From contig JABDJB010000064.1 in NCBI GenBank assembly GCA_013003425.1, positions 1 to 37,211 of the forward strand: a stretch of 37,211 nucleotides of DNA, written 5' to 3'. Made by a program: the position numbers and the translations under genes. Source of the stretch: Gammaproteobacteria bacterium (GTDB lineage: Bacteria > Pseudomonadota > Gammaproteobacteria > Steroidobacterales > JABDKV01). Of this stretch, positions 4,276 to 25,615 are shown piece after piece; the first letter of the stretch is position 1, and each line of letters opens with the position of its first letter. The notes beneath the pieces were generated by a model, which had not been told where the DNA came from, did not search any database, and was given only the letters and a program-made list of their open reading frames with translations.

Positions 4276-4309
4276 AATTGGGGTCAGACCGAGATTATTT
4301 GTAACAATC
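4276..4309 (+). repeat. REP-like repeat, family A, left copy
   Basis: The core GGGGTCAGACCGAGATTATT (4280-4299) is followed by TTGTAACAAT-like sequence that also continues in the right-hand copies. The stop codon of the transposase (4295-4297, minus strand) lies inside this repeat, so gene and repeat form one unit. Confidence 0.75.
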
Positions 4310-5002
4310 GTCGACCGGGCGCTTTCGCGGGCGCCCGGCCTTGCCCGGCCGCACTGAGCGGCCAAGCATGGCTTCAACCTGGTCCCTGAACCTGTCGTTA
4401 CCCAGTACCCGGCACGAGTTGGTTACTGTCCTGATCTGATCCAACTCGTCTGGGGATAGGCTATCGGCAAACAAACCCCGGTAAGCATGCCGCCGTTCCT
4501 CATCGGACTGACCAAGGCATTGATATACCGAGTGCGGCACGACAATGGGGTCACCTTTGCCGTTTGCGTTGCACTGGTAGCTCGACCATAGATACTCCGC
4601 AGGATGGCGCACCATCCCGGCTCTGACCGGATTCAGTTCGATATAGCGGTGACAGGTCAATAAGTAGCGGTCCGTTTGTACCAGGCTCGCCTTGTAGCGT
4701 GCCTGCCACAACGTGCCCGTCCGGTTGTAGCGCTTGTTTATCGGCTGCACATAGTGCCGCCCTATCACCTGCATCAGCAAGGGAATCGACCTTTCATTTC
4801 CTGGCGAAACCAACAGGTGCGTGTGGTTGGTCATCAGAACATACGCATGCACCGGGCAGTCGTGCTGCTGCGAGGCAGCACGGAGCACCTGCAAATAGAG
4901 TTCGTAATCTGCTGTCTCGAAGAATGTGGGCTGCCGATCGACGCCACGCTGAATAACGTGTTGAGGGATTCCGGGTATGAAATAGCGTGGCGGGCGCGGC
5001 AA
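4295..5002 (-). CDS. REP-associated tyrosine transposase (Y1_Tnp, IS200-like)
   Basis: The 235-residue protein belongs to the Y1/HUH single-strand DNA transposase superfamily, in the RAYT branch. The metal-binding HUH pair is H60 and H62 in MTNHTHLLV, and the catalytic tyrosine is expected to be Y120 in RYIELNPVRAGM. The N-terminus (MPRPPRYFIPGIPQHVIQRG) is the usual one for the family, which supports the TTG at 5002 as start; no in-frame ATG lies nearby upstream. An ATG 28 bases upstream is in another frame. The C-terminus is Arg/Lys-rich (PGKAGRPRKRP). RAYTs bind and cut REP hairpins as single strands and are thought to spread them. The gene stops within its left repeat and faces the RHS gene convergently. 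It looks intact. Confidence 0.88.
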   Translation of the reverse strand: MPRPPRYFIPGIPQHVIQRGVDRQPTFFETADYELYLQVLRAASQQHDCPVHAYVLMTNHTHLLVSPGNERSIPLLMQVIGRHYVQPINKRYNRTGTLWQARYKASLVQTDRYLLTCHRYIELNPVRAGMVRHPAEYLWSSYQCNANGKGDPIVVPHSVYQCLGQSDEERRHAYRGLFADSLSPDELDQIRTVTNSCRVLGNDRFRDQVEAMLGRSVRPGKAGRPRKRPVDDCYK

Positions 5003-5081
5003 TTGGGCAGTCCGGTCGGGTTTGCGTCATTACAGGGCCTGCGTGGCTTGCACACCAGCCGGAAATCACACTGGTTGAGGC

Positions 5082-5155
5082 AATTGTGGCGAATAATCCC
5101 GGTCTGACCCCGATTAGTAATTGTGACGAATAATCTCGGTCTGACCCCGATTAGT
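5082..5155 (-). repeat. REP-like repeat, family A, tandem pair (period 37)
   Basis: Two abutting 37-base copies occupy 5082-5118 and 5119-5155. Each contains GGTCTGACCCCGATTAGT and is inverted relative to the copy at 4276. By eye they differ at two positions (GGC/GAC and CCC/CTC). They lie just upstream of the transposase on its own strand. Confidence 0.8.
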
Positions 5156-19474: not shown

Positions 19475-20899
19475 GTGGATAGCAAAAAAGCCCAGCAGTT
19501 TATAAACGGAATGTGGGACGACTCGATCGTGCCGCAGCTGGTCGACTACGTCGCCATTCCCAACAAGTCGCCGCTCTTTGACCCCGACTGGGCCGAGCAT
19601 GGTTACATGGACCAGGCTGCCGACCTTGCCGAAAAATGGTGCCGCGAGCAGCCAATCAAGGGACTGCGGGTTGAAGTCGTGCGACTGCCGGGGCGTACGC
19701 CGCTGTTGTTCGCGGAAGTGCCAGGCGACAACGACGACACGGTGCTGCTGTACGGGCACCTGGACAAGCAGCCGGAATTTACTGGCTGGGAAGACGATCT
19801 TGGCCCGTGGAAGCCGGTCATCCGCGACGGCAAGCTCTACGGACGCGGGGGCGCGGACGACGGGTATGCAGTGTTTGGCTCACTCACCGCTATTCGCGCG
19901 TTGCAGGAGCAGAATATTCCGCATGCTCGCTGCGTAGTGGTCATTGAGTTCTCCGAGGAAAGCGGCAGCCCCGATCTGCCCGCCTACATCGAACATCTCG
20001 CCAATCGCATTGGCACGCCCAGCCTGGTGGTGTGCCTCGATGCCGAGTGCGGCAATTACGACCAGCTTTGGTGCACCACCACGCTGCGCGGAAATCTCGT
20101 CGGCACTTTGTCAGTCGACGTACTCACCGCAGGTGTTCACTCGGGTGGTGCCAGCGGTATCGTGCCGTCGAGCTTTCGGGTGCTACGGCAGCTGCTGACG
20201 CGCCTGGAGGACGAAAACAGCGGCGCTACGCGCGTACCGTTGCTGGAACCGGATATCCCGCAGTCGCGCATTGCAGAAGCTGCTGCCACCGCCGATGTGC
20301 TGGGCGATGGTGTTCACCAGCGCTATCCGTGGGTGGAAGGCATGCGTCCGATCAGCGAGGACCGCGTGGAACTGCTGCTGAATAACTGGTGGCGCTCAAC
20401 CTTGTGCGTCACCGGCGCCGACGGTATCCCCGAGCTGCAGCAGGCCGGCAACACTCTGCGACCGAACACCTCGGTGAAATTATCGTTCCGGCTGCCGCCT
20501 ACCGGCGACGCCACCGCGGCCGGTCAGCAGGTAAAGCAGATGCTGGAGACCGATCCGCCGTACGGCGCCCGGGTGCACTTCGAAGTGGAATCGGCGATGG
20601 AAGGCTGGAGCGCCCCGGAAATTGCCCCATGGCTGGCCGATTCGATGGCGCAGGGATCGAAAGCATTCTTTGGCGCCGACGCCATGTATATGGGCACCGG
20701 CGGCAGCATCCCGTTCATGGCCATGCTGGGCGAAAAATTCCCCGGAACGCAGTTCCTGGTAACCGGCGTACTCGGGCCGCACTCGAATGCGCACGGGCCA
20801 AACGAGTTCCTGCACATTGATACCGGCAAGAAAGTCACCTGCTGCGTCGCCCGGGTGCTGACGGATCACTTCCACCGAGCTGACCGCGCCGCCGCCTGA
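19475..20899 (+). CDS. M20-family metallopeptidase (dipeptidase/carboxypeptidase-like)
   Basis: The 474-residue protein is a two-domain di-zinc hydrolase of the M20 clan. Metal ligands and catalytic residues can be placed: H95 and D97 (YGHLDKQP), bridging D128 (RGGADDGY), general base E161 with ligand E162 (EFSEESGS), D189 (CLDAE), and the C-terminal H440 (GPHSNAHGPNE). The dimerisation lid lies between about 205 and 330 (VLTAGVHSGGASGIVPSSFR at its start). The substrate is probably a dipeptide or N-acyl amino acid, acting in the cytoplasm, since no signal peptide is seen. The start is GTG 19475 with AGGAG six bases upstream. The end is followed directly by REP-like repeats. Confidence 0.9.
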   Translation: MDSKKAQQFINGMWDDSIVPQLVDYVAIPNKSPLFDPDWAEHGYMDQAADLAEKWCREQPIKGLRVEVVRLPGRTPLLFAEVPGDNDDTVLLYGHLDKQPEFTGWEDDLGPWKPVIRDGKLYGRGGADDGYAVFGSLTAIRALQEQNIPHARCVVVIEFSEESGSPDLPAYIEHLANRIGTPSLVVCLDAECGNYDQLWCTTTLRGNLVGTLSVDVLTAGVHSGGASGIVPSSFRVLRQLLTRLEDENSGATRVPLLEPDIPQSRIAEAAATADVLGDGVHQRYPWVEGMRPISEDRVELLLNNWWRSTLCVTGADGIPELQQAGNTLRPNTSVKLSFRLPPTGDATAAGQQVKQMLETDPPYGARVHFEVESAMEGWSAPEIAPWLADSMAQGSKAFFGADAMYMGTGGSIPFMAMLGEKFPGTQFLVTGVLGPHSNAHGPNEFLHIDTGKKVTCCVARVLTDHFHRADRAAA

Positions 20900-20903
20900 A
20901 AGC

Positions 20904-20973
20904 AAAGGGGTCAAGTCTACGCATTACGCATTTTCCGGCAAAGGGGTCAAGTCTACGCATTACGCATTTTCCG
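20904..20973 (+). repeat. Solo REP-like repeat, family B, tandem pair (period 36)
   Basis: Two copies with core GGGGTCAAGTCTACGCATTA start at 20907 and 20943. The sequence is identical to the terminal repeats of RAYT unit 2 at 23148 and 24216 for at least 27 bases. It lies directly downstream of the M20 peptidase gene and has no transposase of its own here, so it is a non-autonomous copy pair. Confidence 0.85.
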
Positions 20974-21050
20974 AAATGCCCGATGCGGAAGGGCAAAAAT
21001 TCTCACATTAAACATTTTTTTCACCGGCGCCCGGCGCGGTTACAGAACAA

Positions 21051-21068
21051 AAATGCGGACTTGACCCC
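21051..21068 (-). repeat. Degenerate inverted copy of repeat family B
   Basis: AAATGCGGACTTGACCCC is the reverse complement of the family B core with its internal TACGCATTACG part lost. It faces the tandem pair at 20904, so the stretch 20904-21068 has the same head-to-head layout as RAYT unit 2 but no gene inside. Confidence 0.55.
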
Positions 21069-21080
21069 CATGACTCACAA

Positions 21081-21203
21081 CCGCTGCTTAAGCGCGTTCT
21101 GTCATGAGTCCAGGTCGGAATGACTCGCCGTTAACGCCCCCGATATGCCTGCCTCCCCGGCCTGTCACGCACTTTCAGTCCGGTCTTTATCTTTCCTATC
21201 CGC
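21081..21203 (+). repeat. Diverged direct repeat, copy 1
   Basis: This 123-base stretch matches 22243-22384 at roughly nine of ten aligned positions, with one insertion of about 17-19 bases in the other copy. Shared blocks include GGTCGGAATGACT, CCCCGGCCTGTCACG, ACTTTCAGT and GTCTTTATCTTTCCTATCCG. It is not part of any convincing gene. Confidence 0.8.
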
Positions 21204-21594
21204 CTCAGAGCACTGTTCTTTCGGCCGCCCGGTCCGGCCGGAGCGCTTGCCCTGTTCGGTGCCGGGCACAATCGCCTTTGGAGAACGAAATGACCTTTTC
21301 GTTGTTCGAGACGGGTGCCGCCGCCTTTGTCGAGCAGCCGGAATACATCGAAACGTGTCGAAGACGGTTGCCGCCGGTTTGGAGGTGGTCTAGATCGGGC
21401 TTCCAGATGCGATCATGCAAAGCATCCGAAACGGGCACTACCCGCATGGGTTTCTGGTGGCAACGCAAAGGACATAAAATTGTGCAGCGCAAATTGAAAA
21501 CGACCAGAAACACAACTAGCTTTCTGAGTACACCGCGAAGTGAATATGCGGACTCCCCTACACTCGATCTAATCTCTATTTTGAAGGAAAGGAA
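21204..21594. other. Non-coding leader region before the low-GC gene
   Basis: I see no convincing gene, tRNA or hairpin terminator here. GC falls toward the right end (about 45 percent in a line I counted). The only clear signal is the purine-rich AAGGAAAGGAA just before the ATG at 21595, which serves as ribosome binding site. An open frame crossing it is argued against below. Confidence 0.5.
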
Positions 21595-22008
21595 ATGAAA
21601 AATACATTAATCAAAATGGCGGCGACGTCTTTGCTTTTAGTTTTTTCGCAGAGTGTTCTTGCATGGATTGATCCAGCCGCGCCGTCTGCTTCGCACCATC
21701 TGGAAGACGCCGCTACGGCTATTCATGACTATCTACACGATGAATATAGCTCTTCATTCGGTGCTCACGGTATGGAAGAGGCAAGCGATGCCTTGCACAG
21801 TATTTTACACGACTGGTCGCATGGTGAAGCGACTGAAGCGGAGGTGGTTGTTGCCAAGGACGCGTTAAAAGAAGCATGGAACAATTTCCGTCAGACCATT
21901 AACCCTGCTGGAATATTGAACAGCGGAGACACGCAACTCGACGATATGTATCAGGAGGTTAAGAGTGCATATAAAGAGGTTCGCTGGCTGCTCCGCAAAG
22001 CGAAGTAA
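21595..22008 (+). CDS. Small low-GC periplasmic helical protein, hypothetical
   Basis: The 137-residue protein has a clear Sec signal peptide (MKNTLIKMAATSLLLVFSQSVLA, cleavage before WIDP). The mature part is predicted helical and rich in His, Asp and Glu (HHLEDAATAIHDYLHDEY, HSILHDWSHG), which might bind metal. The spacing resembles a four-helix bundle, but I cannot name a family. The first 60 bases are about 37 percent GC, far below the core genes of this window. The gene lies between the two direct-repeat copies at 21081 and 22243. It has a strong ribosome site and an intact frame. Recent transfer is likely. Confidence 0.75.
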   Translation: MKNTLIKMAATSLLLVFSQSVLAWIDPAAPSASHHLEDAATAIHDYLHDEYSSSFGAHGMEEASDALHSILHDWSHGEATEAEVVVAKDALKEAWNNFRQTINPAGILNSGDTQLDDMYQEVKSAYKEVRWLLRKAK

Positions 22009-22242
22009 AGTTCAGCGGGCACCGCGCTGGCAAAATTCAGCGAGGGCGTGACGACAAAAGCTGGCGTGATCGCCAATCGACATCGTCGCGCTCTCGCGCC
22101 AGGAAAACCCAATCTCCGGGTGTAAAATGACGTGCAAAATGACTTTGTCGTTTTTGTCCGAGAGCCTGACGGGAAATATCGGTGACAATTAGAGATACAA
22201 CATGCACGTGCCAATTTACGGCGCCGGAGCTCCGCCACACAG
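22009..22242. other. Intergenic stretch without a recognised gene
   Basis: No supported gene or RNA is seen. The start (TTCAGCGGGC / TTCAGCGAGG, around 22011 and 22035) carries two similar decamers. Frames open on the minus strand here have no homology or ribosome site that I can see. Confidence 0.4.
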
Positions 22243-22384
22243 CCGGTGCTTAAGTGCGTTCTGTTATGAGTCGAGGTCGGAATGACTCCCCGTAAACGCC
22301 CCCCGATATGCCCGACCAACTCCCTGGTTGCGTCACCCCGGCCTGTCACGTACTTTCAGTAGAGTCTTTATCTTTCCTATCCGC
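22243..22384 (+). repeat. Diverged direct repeat, copy 2
   Basis: This is the second copy of the 21081-21203 element in the same orientation, about 1160 bases downstream. Relative to copy 1 it carries an extra 17-19 bases (around GACCAACTCCCTGGTTG) after the shared GATATGCC. It ends about 155 bases before the CIA30-domain gene. Confidence 0.8.
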
Positions 22385-22538
22385 GTGTCGTTCATGATCT
22401 TGTGGAGTGTTTTGTCTTTTTCTGGGTGTTTGTGCTCGGTATGCCAGTTGGCCCGGCACGCCGACCTGTTGCGGCCTGGACTAGTCTCAAAACAACCCCG
22501 GCTCGCCCACTAAACAAATATCCGTAACCACACCTGTC

Positions 22539-23147
22539 ATGAATCGAGCTAACATTCTGTCGCCTCTGTTGCTGTTTATTGGATACCTGCTGATGACTCT
22601 TTCCAGCCTGCCTGCAAACACATCTGCTTCTACCCGCGAGGGAGAGCGCCTGCTGACTGATTTCACAGCCGGAACGTCTGACTTCGGCTGGTATGTGGTC
22701 AATGACAATGTCATGGGGGGGCGCAGCGACGGCGGCTTCGAACTGGAACCGGAGCAGCTACTTTTTACCGGCACGACGAATACCGATGGTGGCGGATTCA
22801 GTTCGATACGCACCGCGCCAATGCAGCTGGATCTGTCGAGCCAGGCCGGCATACGGCTGGTCGTGAAAGGTGATGGTCGCCGCTATACCTGGCGGCTGAC
22901 CAGTGACGCCCGCTGGCGCGGCAGACTGATCAGTTACTGGGCGGATTTCGAAACGCGTAATGGCGAATGGACTACAGCCAACCTGCCCTTCTCCAGCTTT
23001 ATCCCCAGATCCCGCGGCTATCAGCTCGATGGGCCAGCGCTGGATGCCGGACAGATTACCGGGATGGGTCTGATGATCTACGACAAGCAGGATGGCCCTT
23101 TTCATTTGCAGCTGGCCAATGTCAGCGCTTATTCCAAAGAAAAATAA
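22539..23147 (+). CDS. CIA30-domain (complex I intermediate-associated protein 30-like) exported protein
   Basis: The 202-residue protein has an N-terminal hydrophobic segment (residues 7-27, LSPLLLFIGYLLMTLSSLPA) that acts as signal or anchor. A CIA30 beta-sandwich follows, recognised by WYVVNDNVMGGRSDGGF (residues about 50-67), GFSSIRTAPM and the C-terminal DAGQITGMGLMIYDKQDGPFHLQL. In mitochondria CIA30 is an assembly factor for complex I. Bacterial homologues resemble carbohydrate-binding folds and have no settled role, and an exported copy like this one is unlikely to act on complex I. Its stop codon touches the left repeat of RAYT unit 2, so that insertion came to rest immediately behind the gene. 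Confidence 0.85.
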   Translation: MNRANILSPLLLFIGYLLMTLSSLPANTSASTREGERLLTDFTAGTSDFGWYVVNDNVMGGRSDGGFELEPEQLLFTGTTNTDGGGFSSIRTAPMQLDLSSQAGIRLVVKGDGRRYTWRLTSDARWRGRLISYWADFETRNGEWTTANLPFSSFIPRSRGYQLDGPALDAGQITGMGLMIYDKQDGPFHLQLANVSAYSKEK

Positions 23148-23174
23148 GGGGTCAAGTCTACGCATTACGCATTT
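23148..23174 (+). repeat. Family B repeat, left end of RAYT unit 2
   Basis: Begins GGGGTCAAGTCTACGCATTA and is identical to the solo copies at 20907 and 20943 over 27 bases. It contains the transposase stop codon (23158-23160, TAG on the minus strand). Confidence 0.85.
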
Positions 23175-24126
23175 TCGAGAGGCGGGTGCGTAGCCAGGCC
23201 AGTTCGCCGGCCACGGCAGGGTCTCGCGTCGCCCTGTCGCGACAGCGGCTGATGGCAGAGGCGACGGTGGTGTAGGAGGTGGGGCCGAAGGTGTCGGCGA
23301 GGTCTCGCAACGTCAGTCCGCCATATTGTTGTCCGAGCAGCATAGCGAGAGCCCGTTGCTCACGTGCATGGCGGTCAGCGGCTTCGAGAATCTCCTGTCG
23401 CGATCGGGCGGAGCGGGCGCAAACAACAGCGATAATTTCGTCCAGCGATAACATTGTGGTTGATAACTTTGACTGGGGAATTTCATAGTCAGACGACCCA
23501 CGTCTTTGCGAAGCGGAGACGAACTCTTTGGAACCCAGCACGGCGGCGTACCGGCTGGAGGCAGCCGACAGTAGCAGGTCATCGTCGTGTTCATCTGTTT
23601 GTCCCTCAACAAAGGCGCAATAGCCCCCGGCTGATTGGAACGGAGCGATCGTGTGACGCAGGTGCAACCAGCCCGGTACCGGGCGCAACCCGGCAAAGCA
23701 GCGATAGCTGGACCATGGATAGTCAACCAACCGGTCGCACAGGCCGGCCGCAAGCGGGTTGCGGTGCACGTAACGGCTGACACACAGCAAATAACTGTCC
23801 TGTTCGATTAGCTGCGCCTTATAGCGTCCGCGGAATAACGGGCCGTCGGTTCTCAGGTGACGGTTGTGTCGTTGTGCGTAAACACTGTCGAGATGTTGCA
23901 TCGCCCTACCGAGGTTGGCGAGCCTGGTTTGCACGAGCAGATGGTAGTGATTACCCATTAAGCAGTAGGCGTGGCAGCACACCCGGTATCTGTCATGCAG
24001 GTCACTAAGCAAGTCGAGGAATTGCTGACGCAGGTAATCGTCAGGAAAAACCTGGCACCGCCCGGCACCACGATTCATAACGTGATACCAGGCGCCGGGG
24101 TATTCGATTCGCAGTGGGCGCGCCAT
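23158..24126 (-). CDS. REP-associated tyrosine transposase with C-terminal DnaA-like helix-turn-helix
   Basis: The 322-residue protein is a Y1 transposase of the longer RAYT class starting MARPLRIEYPGAWYHVMNRG. The HUH histidines are H60 and H62 (MGNHYHLLV), and the catalytic tyrosine is expected to be Y119 (RYVHRNPLAAGL). The C-terminal 110 residues hold a domain resembling DnaA domain IV (LTLRDLADTFG ... YTTVASAISRCR), known from this class and presumably used for repeat recognition. The ATG at 24126 was chosen because AAAGGA precedes it by seven bases; a TTG two codons upstream is possible. It differs clearly from the 235-residue RAYT at 4295, so two separate systems coexist. The gene is intact. 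Confidence 0.9.
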   Translation of the reverse strand: MARPLRIEYPGAWYHVMNRGAGRCQVFPDDYLRQQFLDLLSDLHDRYRVCCHAYCLMGNHYHLLVQTRLANLGRAMQHLDSVYAQRHNRHLRTDGPLFRGRYKAQLIEQDSYLLCVSRYVHRNPLAAGLCDRLVDYPWSSYRCFAGLRPVPGWLHLRHTIAPFQSAGGYCAFVEGQTDEHDDDLLLSAASSRYAAVLGSKEFVSASQRRGSSDYEIPQSKLSTTMLSLDEIIAVVCARSARSRQEILEAADRHAREQRALAMLLGQQYGGLTLRDLADTFGPTSYTTVASAISRCRDRATRDPAVAGELAWLRTRLSKMRNA

Positions 24127-24215
24127 CGACAAGTCCTTTTATCGAACTGACTTGGACTAAATGATGATGCGTGCTACCGAGGTGGGCGAGTCCGAAAACT
24201 GGTACTCAGTTCGAT

Positions 24216-24242
24216 AAATGCGTAATGCGTAGACTTGACCCC
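24216..24242 (-). repeat. Family B repeat, right end of RAYT unit 2
   Basis: Exact reverse complement of 23148-23174. It lies about 90 bases upstream of the transposase start codon and could also contain or overlap its promoter. Confidence 0.85.
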
Positions 24243-24292
24243 TATTCTTGTAGGCCCGCCGCCAAGTCCGCCGCCAAATCTGCTGCAAGCAG

Positions 24293-24315
24293 TCGCGGCT
24301 GGAAGCCGCTCCCAC
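24293..24315. repeat. Palindromic REP of the GCGGCTGGAAGCCGC type
   Basis: GCGGCT (24295-24300) and AGCCGC (24304-24309) form a 6-bp GC stem around GGA, followed by TCCCAC. This resembles the GTGGGAGCGGCTTCCAGCCGCGA elements known from many gammaproteobacteria such as Pseudomonas. It sits immediately after the stop of the DUF885-like gene and could stabilise or end that transcript. Confidence 0.65.
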
Positions 24316-24316
24316 G

Positions 24317-25615
24317 TTAGGGTTGCAGCGTCGAAGCGCTGACCGGCGTCGAGATAACCTTTTCGAATGCAGCCCAGCGCGTCTCCAGACCACGCCCGGC
24401 GCCTTCGACATACTCGCGCACGATGTCCTTGCCGAGGTTGTAGTTGATCACATAGGCGCGGTACTTCTCGATGAACTTCAGCCGCTGTTCGGCACGTTCC
24501 TGCGACATCAACGCATAGTCCTGCAGCCACTGCACCGCAGCAGCGGCGTCGATGTCACCATCCAGATAGCGCCGGGCAGCCTCGTTACCGGCATAGTTCA
24601 GGCGACTGACCAGTTCATCGACCCGGTAGTATTCTTCAACCCGGCTGGCATCCAGCCCGGCCAGCGGGAACAGCACATTGCGCTCGAACTGCTGCCGCTC
24701 CTGCCCGGGAAACGCCATGTTGATGCCGTAATTAGCGCTACCTTCGGCAATCAGGCTCATCGGGCTGAACAGTGCATACACCGAGTACTCGACCCAGCCG
24801 CGCTTGTCGACCAGCTCACGTTCCAGCAGCGTGTTGAATACGTGATGCCCGGGATAACCCTCATGACAGGCCAGGTCGATGGCGCGGTCAATAAATATGG
24901 GCAGGTCGGTATTGAGCTGGATCAGGCTGTAGGCATCGCCCTGGAACCAGTTGTAGCCACTCCACGGTTTGTCGTTTACATACTCCACGACAAAGCGCTC
25001 GCCTTCGGGCAGCGGTATGCGGGCAACGGTGCGGCGACGACATTCATCAATTGCGGCAGCAAAAACCGTGTCCAGCTTTTCCGTTGGAATGACAAAATCC
25101 TGGCGAAACGCGTCCAGGCGCTGCGACAGCGCGCCGCCACCAGGCAGCAAAGCGTCCAGTTCACGGTTCAGCGCAATAAAGTGGCTGGCCTCGTGTCGTG
25201 GTGCGCGTGCGTCGTATAACAGCCTTGCTTCCTGGTCGAAACTGAACTGCTTGCCGCGCAACATGTCGGCCCGCGTCTGCACTGCCGTGAGCTGCTTCAT
25301 CAGCAGTGCGCGCCGTTGCGCTACCAGTGGCGTATCACGACCCAGGTCTCCGGCATTGATCGTGCTGCGCAGCAGTCCGGATTCAATTGCGATTGCATCG
25401 AGCGACAGCTCATCGCGTTCGGCAGCTTTGCGCCATTGCTCCGGTCCATGGTAAGCATCAACGAAATCCGCATCATGCCGACCCAATGCCAGCACCAGCC
25501 GTACGTAAGCTTCAGCCTGCGCATTGAGGTCGCGCGGCGTCACGGCAGGTGTGGTTGTGCAGGCACAAAGCAGTACTGCAGCCACCGTGGCGGCTGCCCC
25601 GAGCTTGGAAAGCAT
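24317..25615 (-). CDS. DUF885-like metallopeptidase lipoprotein
   Basis: The 432-residue protein has a lipoprotein-like signal (MLSKLGAAATVAAVLLCAC, Cys19). It is mostly helical and carries HEGYPGHH at 251-258 with a following glutamate in AEGSANYG (E291), the zinc-site layout of DUF885 proteins (gluzincin-like peptidases). A second HExxH-like string (HEASH, 141-145) is also present but lacks a known third ligand. Length is shorter than typical DUF885 proteins (550-600). It is likely periplasmic and lipid-anchored; the substrate is unknown. Start ATG 25615 is preceded by GAGGG. The NERD gene ends 30 bases upstream, so the two are probably one transcript. Confidence 0.75.
   Translation of the reverse strand: MLSKLGAAATVAAVLLCACTTTPAVTPRDLNAQAEAYVRLVLALGRHDADFVDAYHGPEQWRKAAERDELSLDAIAIESGLLRSTINAGDLGRDTPLVAQRRALLMKQLTAVQTRADMLRGKQFSFDQEARLLYDARAPRHEASHFIALNRELDALLPGGGALSQRLDAFRQDFVIPTEKLDTVFAAAIDECRRRTVARIPLPEGERFVVEYVNDKPWSGYNWFQGDAYSLIQLNTDLPIFIDRAIDLACHEGYPGHHVFNTLLERELVDKRGWVEYSVYALFSPMSLIAEGSANYGINMAFPGQERQQFERNVLFPLAGLDASRVEEYYRVDELVSRLNYAGNEAARRYLDGDIDAAAAVQWLQDYALMSQERAEQRLKFIEKYRAYVINYNLGKDIVREYVEGAGRGLETRWAAFEKVISTPVSASTLQP

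Follow-up and report, generated by a model that had tools for sequence, protein, structure and literature searches.

How does a transposase recognize repeats that border its own gene and also occur away from it? The question is raised by a 27-base repeat (GGGGTCAAGTCTACGCATTACGCATTT) in a stretch of gammaproteobacterial DNA of 37,211 nucleotides, here called the window (contig JABDJB010000064.1 of assembly GCA_013003425.1), where the repeat stands at both ends of a RAYT gene and again as a pair at some distance from it. The element formed by this gene and its terminal inverted repeats (TIRs) is a TIRtron with a RAYT of TnpAREP subclass 2.1, a published kind. From the comparison of sequences it is probable that the HUH domain of this enzyme engages the outer end GGGGTCA, that a DnaA-like domain reads TIR positions 8-24, that inverted doublets of the TIR are moved, and that tandem duplications at the TIR edges arise as by-products.

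As the original prediction held, the repeats form the ends of an element: inverted arms of 28 nt, 100% complementary and 1041 nt apart, bound the RAYT gene (Table 1), giving the long TIRs by which a TIRYT/TIRtron is described. The final codons of the RAYT (MRNA and the stop) are encoded within the left TIR, and the element starts right behind the stop codon of a gene for a CIA30-domain protein (22539-23147). Because pairs of related elements have different outer flanks, we infer that the boundary lies at GGGG. The tetranucleotide CTAA/CTAG, which copies in NORP103 had suggested as part of the element, was ruled out since L031/L033 and L067/L090 differ there.

Pfam matches of the focal protein are Y1_Tnp (E-value 4.6e-10) and Bac_DnaA_C (7.6e-5, below Pfam's own cut-off). 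Over 75 aligned members, Y1_Tnp is matched in 75 and Bac_DnaA_C in 71. This alignment (A1) combines P0001 with 74 relatives. They come from a set of 80 taken from genome contigs, of which five had stops or frame breaks and a sixth, L068, nearly duplicates L054; these six were left out. H62, H64, and Y121 are invariant in A1, and, from their positions and what is known of the family, we take H62/H64 to be the HUH pair and Y121 the catalytic tyrosine. In the predicted structure model (pLDDT 89.6), residues 3-188 match TnpAREP (4er8, Z 16.6) and residues 228-323 match the DNA-binding domain of DnaA (3pvp, Z 17.0, root-mean-square deviation 1.3 Å over 95 residues; 1j1v, Z 16.7), so that the C-terminus of the predicted model is DnaA domain IV. 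The expected RAYT of the long class with a DnaA-like C-terminal domain is supported by both Pfam and the model.

The 27-mer is found without difference at all four places claimed for it in the window (20907, 20943, and 23148 on the plus strand, 24216-24242 on the minus strand), and an ungapped scan of the window with up to 9 mismatches gave no fifth. The degenerate inverted copy that had also been reported exists on the minus strand at about 21048-21068, but extends only to the outer 11 bases and a gapped remnant. The copies at 20907 and 20943 had been taken for a solo pair, as if the repeats had moved there; instead, they form an in-place tandem duplication of one TIR together with its flank. 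The window holds 13 occurrences of GGGGTCA, where shuffles give an expectation of 3.75. Across the whole assembly (3.26 Mb in 115 contigs, 95.5% complete), two further exact copies form an inverted pair in contig C103, one copy with 2 mismatches lies in C93, and one with 3 in C29; the reversed-pattern control gave 0 matches. The C103 pair is an 81-bp inverted doublet with perfect arms (G000:C103:27425-27505, or L005:1501-1581), whose neighbours we take by eye to be 5S and the 3' end of 23S rRNA. The C93 copy belongs to a doublet behind tRNA-Gly and the C29 copy is a palindrome of a related family, so that TIR copies occur elsewhere in the genome, often as dimers, as in other TIRYTs. Doublets fold strongly (folding z -5.0 to -12.4, with -5.0 for the decayed doublet of the window). 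The RAYT gene has apparently scattered short hairpin copies of its repeats through the genome. Three doublets adjoin stable RNA genes: that of the 23S-5S spacer, with a possible effect on rRNA processing, and two that lie 68 and 9 nt behind tRNA-Gly (L007:1501) and tRNA-Gln (L133:1501), in two genomes.

In-place tandem duplication of a TIR with its flank is a recurrent feature of such ends. An exact tandem duplication across the outer TIR edge was found at 51 of 284 distinct ends and at 5 of 5146 control anchors. The first set gave 24/153 ends (controls 6/2648), two further sets 5/28 and 5/30 (controls 2/420 and 0/559), and the later-fetched loci 14/83 (control 1/1413); at GGGG without the following TCA the count was 28/6721. 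Breakpoints were compared in 43 of the 51 duplications, the other eight being arrays of more than two units with overlaps above 3 nt. The inner breakpoint peaks after base 7, right after GGGGTCA: 24 of the 43 two-unit cases are compatible with 7, nine with 6, and five with 9. The flank portion measures 5-13 nt. The 36-bp duplication of the window itself belongs to a long minority, with its breakpoint at 31. At the left end of one relative (L222, G558:C5), the 9-mer GGGGTCACA is repeated head to tail about twelve times directly outside the TIR. A candidate cutting site can be read from the edge duplications. That they are plain replication slippage at the foot of a hairpin, with the enzyme uninvolved, is possible and the most serious of the alternatives: the junction microhomology is mostly 0-3 nt, the doublets fold strongly, and the units span 8 to 58 bp. 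The sharp breakpoint peak and the narrow range of flank lengths argue against slippage alone.

The inner part of the TIR was compared with the protein in 79 members, obtained from 100 proteins with a TIR by thinning at 85% identity and by a rule on C-terminal coverage. In a partial Mantel test, TIR 8-24 correlates with the C-terminus given the Y1 and middle regions (r=0.24, p=0.001), whereas the middle region, which is as diverged as the C-terminus (mean 0.71 vs 0.73), has r=-0.01 given the others. The C-terminal effect falls to r=0.05 both in TIR 25-32 (p=0.12) and in TIR 33-40 (p=0.06), and the helix signal is likewise confined to TIR 8-24 and not seen in 25-40. Over 39 disjoint nearest pairs, rho is 0.65 for the C-terminus and 0.73 for the recognition region 283-300; the latter keeps 0.62 given the middle (p=0.0002) and 0.53 (p 0.0008) when the remainder of the C-terminus is controlled for. 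Among 12-residue windows, 288-299 and 284-295 score best in these pairs. An unsupervised coupling scan of 312 protein columns against TIR positions 8-40 placed T288 and S286, each with TIR 14, at the top. The alignment maps T288 to T435 and S286 to D433 of DnaA, where T435M is reported to be defective in DnaA-box binding and helix 434-451 to enter the major groove (PMC5742627). The recognition-helix window was examined once the coupling scan of these sequences had been made, and it coincides with this published major-groove helix.

A later set comprised 171 full open reading frames (ORFs) from 189 loci, of which 143 had a TIR at one end at least; thinning left 63 discovery and 25 replicate proteins. 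Since the order-level groups hold only 4, 3, and 1 genomes, 60 further loci were added by coordinates. In the pooled data the helix gives 0.66 given the middle over 44 pairs (p 0.0002) and 0.28 in the Mantel test. The partial Mantel test on the replicate proteins is weak but positive (helix 0.17, p 0.01; C-terminus 0.14, p 0.03). These comparisons suggest that divergence of TIR 8-24 tracks the DnaA-like domain, above all its recognition helix, although the small replicate set only partly confirms it. A recognition code between the DnaA-like domain and the TIR is likely, but not proven.

The DnaA-like domain of a TIRtron might instead find replication forks or the replisome and not the TIR, the covariation being a trace of shared ancestry. 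DnaA domain IV normally binds origin DNA (PMC5742627), without correction TIR distance is likewise correlated with the Y1 and middle regions, and the replicate pairs do not separate the domains. We nevertheless regard this as unlikely: the equally diverged middle loses its correlation once the C-terminus is removed and the C-terminus keeps its own, the helix correlates with TIR 8-24 but not with 25-40, and the signal is highest at the recognition helix.

Genomes of relatives bear on whether the element has moved. The stretch 20900..24323 is missing at the corresponding place in G002, G003, and G004, and about 280 other bases stand there in G001. Since the flanking genes are nearly adjacent in the sister genomes, the element is not ancestral at this site. 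The 81-bp doublet of the rRNA spacer is absent from G004, which reads GCGTT-TC-CGCAAATT against GCATT-(81 bp)-GCGCAAATT. At the empty site G004 has what reads as a small hairpin, TTGCG-TTTC-CGCAA, and the doublet was therefore inserted in or next to its loop. Mapping of the copies and a search for empty sites, proposed with the original prediction as a check, thus gave both an empty spacer site and three relatives without the insert. Movement, which had been called recent or ongoing, is supported in this way. Its date does not follow from the identity of the copies, because tandem copies can be identical without transposition; the identical C103 pair is the better evidence.

A single move of 20902-24243 as a composite, with inverted TIR copies as its ends and the CIA30-domain gene and a small ORF as cargo, is improbable. 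Over 40 nt, its outer arms (20894-20933 and 24216-24255) show 90% complementarity, the whole stretch is absent from G002-G004, and the CIA30-domain gene has matches at other loci in order-level relatives. However, the RAYT is already bounded by inner TIRs, the left TIR copy exists in duplicate and has a decayed partner of its own to pair with, and a second copy of the composite was not found in the genome. Stepwise growth is the simpler account, because the stretch also holds an unrelated direct-repeat module. That the 27-mers are immobile terminators or regulatory hairpins under selection is very improbable, for although two copies follow stop codons, either immediately or after 7 nt, and two doublets follow tRNA genes, the pattern is missing from nearly all relatives, the rRNA site has a clean empty counterpart, and a transposase gene has this very sequence at its ends.

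When up to 3 mismatches are allowed, the 27-mer pattern is present in 5 of 59 genomes, its own included. G022 holds 20 copies of a variant repeat beside a truncated RAYT relative with an open frame of 64 aa (G022:C298, L213); G003 holds 7 copies and a lone fragment of an element end (G003:C29, L129), and no match to the RAYT gene was found in it. The TIR copies thus outlive the gene.

The ends of related elements were examined by a motif-free search for the best inverted repeat near the RAYT in 78 of the 80 loci, two being too short, and GGGTCA was recovered in both arms at 56. Exact GGGGTCA at both ends is found in 48 elements, mostly of about 1.0-1.1 kb; as this set was selected with exact GGGGTCA, the invariance of the motif in it is partly by construction. 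Outside GGGG an A-rich preference is seen (A at position -2 in 69/95, at -1 in 60/95). Target-site duplications were sought in the 48 elements and none was found. A hairpin GTCAA...TTGAC within the TIR was rejected as a general rule, since it is missing from the focal TIR. TTGAC, the reverse complement of the core's GTCAA, occurs inside the TIR in 22/48 elements, at one end or both and in two spacings (2.4% per shuffled TIR), as a possible small hairpin or dimer site. In 14/48 the RAYT frame continues across the right TIR to a stop codon formed by flank bases 2-4. Two contigs of one metagenome-assembled genome (L054, L068) are 99.7% identical over 1.7 kb of element and right flank, and their left flanks differ up to CTAA, a pattern of recombination between copies or of an assembly chimera. 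Among 22 plasmid records searched for close relatives with polymorphism, all were below 60% identity, and viral contigs gave one fragment only. The pattern GGGGTCAN{3,12}GGGGTCAAGTCT was found once each in 5 of 229 genomes (reversed control 0), too rarely for use.

The window contains another RAYT, encoded at 4295-5002 between inverted repeats (GGGGTCAGACCG...) that include GGGGTCA. Bac_DnaA_C has no match in it even at E-values up to 10. The two enzymes had been set apart by the DnaA-like domain of the second and joined by the GGGGTCA start of both repeat families, and both statements hold. Since the first RAYT has GGGGTCA and no Bac_DnaA_C match, the simplest inference is that the Y1 part common to both would read GGGGTCA and the DnaA-like part positions 8-24. 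The 37-bp tandem at the right end of the first element carries two differences.

Taken together, the focal TIRtron would be an insertion sequence-like element of about 1.1 kb whose single gene encodes a Y1/HUH single-strand transposase fused to a predicted DnaA domain IV. The enzyme would act on its own inverted repeats, whether these form the ends of the element or lie in short doublets, which fold into hairpins of full length. Its HUH domain may engage the invariant outer end and its DnaA-like domain may read the variable part of the TIR, holding each enzyme to its own repeats. The unit from GGGG to CCCC would be moved into A-rich sites without target-site duplication, and duplications of flank plus GGGGTCA may be left behind where strands are cut and rejoined or where the template slips at the hairpin foot. 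Several findings weigh against this account. The focal RAYT gene is single-copy in its genome and no transposition was observed. The relatives are distant (about 71-78% DNA identity in flanking genes), and small later changes at the empty sites are therefore possible. The flank breakpoints show no consensus by eye. The Y1 region retains a signal in the pooled Mantel test (0.13, p 0.003) and is as strong as the helix in the replicate partial Mantel test (0.18, p 0.015). In the replicate pairs (12 pairs, 25 proteins) the helix given the middle falls to -0.02 (p 0.53), and Y1 given the C-terminus reaches 0.61 (p 0.016). In the bootstrap, the helix-minus-middle difference ranges from -0.01 to 0.44, and the top couplings include the Y1 residues C52, Q68, H54, and L115.

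Two further modules lie in or beside the focal stretch. Positions 21076-21203 and 22238-22384 are direct copies of a stretch of about 130 bp (89-92% alike). Between them lies a piece of 1.1 kb whose 137-aa ORF (21595-22008) belongs to no known family, and the genome-comparison matches include no further copy of the stretch. At 24256-24316 stands a GTGG-type repeat resembling repetitive extragenic palindromes (REPs). It has no relation to the GGGGTCA family, and its copies, some of them in arrays, lie in contigs C10, C58, C75, and C87.

Table 1. Positions in the window of the two RAYT elements, their repeats, and the tandem duplication
Feature	Position	Strand	Basis or remark
First RAYT element: 235-aa RAYT, GGGGTCAGACCG TIRs, 37-bp near-exact tandem at right end	4280..5148	-	Inverted-repeat scan
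36-bp exact tandem duplication, (GCAAA + TIR + TCCG) x2	20902..20973	+	Each unit holds 5 flank bases (GCAAA)
First TIR copy in the tandem	20907..20933	+	Exact 27-mer match
Second TIR copy in the tandem, also the left arm of the decayed inverted doublet	20943..20969	+	Exact match; pairing by folding
Degenerate inverted copy; right arm of decayed doublet	21048..21068	-	Outer 11 bases intact, remainder gapped
TIRtron, 1095 bp, GGGG to CCCC, RAYT gene between perfect TIRs	23148..24242	-	Inverted-repeat scan
Left TIR, holds RAYT stop codon	23148..23174	+	Directly after TAA stop of CIA30-domain gene
RAYT/TIRYT gene, 324 aa, Y1/HUH domain and predicted DnaA domain IV (residues 228-323)	23158..24132	-	ORF, Pfam, model
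Right TIR, upstream of RAYT gene	24216..24242	-	Exact 27-mer match

The TIRYT/TIRtron was named in 2013 by Di Nocera for a TIR-flanked RAYT-like gene, with the motif GGGGWSAS in some TIRs (PMC3733652). The HUH residues and tyrosine, the Y1_Tnp match, and the 4er8 match of the focal protein are those of a RAYT-like Y1 transposase. The focal element resembles the published ones in having long TIRs in place of GTAG hairpin REPs, in a similar distance from TIR to gene, and in having further TIR copies in the genome, whether single, dimeric, or grouped (PMC3733652). It differs at base 8 of the TIR, which is A in the focal family: the focal TIR fits GGGGWSAS, a motif published for some TIRs only, at 7 of 8 bases, and among relatives base 8 is A in 88/96 ends and G in 8/96. 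In the accessible part of that description, no recognition code, edge duplication, or empty site was found (PMC3733652).

TnpAREP subclass 2.1 corresponds to RAYT group 1 and is probably equal to TIRYT (PMC6006769). Its C-terminal helix-turn-helix extension, matched by Bac_DnaA_C (PMC6006769), is present here (71/75 members; DnaA domain IV, Z 17.0). No REP-like sequences are reported near the members of this subclass, and the authors left open the role of the C-terminal domain in target recognition (PMC6006769); the covariation speaks for such a role. With REPtrons, in which a RAYT (TnpAREP, 4er8) acts with REPINs, the focal element shares the Y1/HUH fold, inverted doublets that form hairpins, and mostly one transposase gene per repeat family. 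In contrast to REPtrons, the focal type of RAYT gene itself has TIRs, and near-identical elements occur at different sites in one other genome (L048 vs L054/L068). REPtrons are described by a GTAG or GTGG foot beside a short hairpin that flanks the gene; a GTAG-foot hairpin was not recognized in the focal TIR, within which a scan for inverted repeats of at least 14 nt gave none. With IS200/IS605 (IS608, ISDra2) the element shares the HUH-Y1 fold and the lack of target-site duplication; it differs in having inverted repeats at both ends, against two subterminal hairpins, and in the extra DNA-binding domain of its enzyme. Among the matches listed by a literature search on GGGGTCAAGTC-type strings, no title concerned TIRtron-type elements, and searches on TIRYT/TIRtron, Bac_DnaA_C, and Y1_Tnp, to which the claim is limited, met neither the covariation nor the edge duplications. 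Within the parts of the literature consulted, covariation of the TIR with the DnaA-like domain and edge duplications that break after GGGGTCA thus go beyond what is described.

This RAYT group is common, with matches in 69 of 369 genomes of the class (E-value up to 1e-40, own genome included). The odds seem even that TIRYTs are, as a family, two-part readers: an HUH domain, as a single-strand nuclease, would cut at the invariant GGGGTCA, possibly at the junction of bases 7 and 8, and a DnaA domain IV acquired by capture would bind the following 16-17 bp in duplex form, using the recognition-helix residues that DnaA itself uses. Stuttered ends would then be a fossil record of cutting. The covariation provides a direct hypothesis for the extra domain, one that can be swapped between enzymes. 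Together with the edge duplications, it makes testable how a relative of single-strand, hairpin-reading transposases can use ordinary inverted repeats. If the two-part reading is true, changes in the recognition helix would let a TIR family split off a private repeat family of its own.

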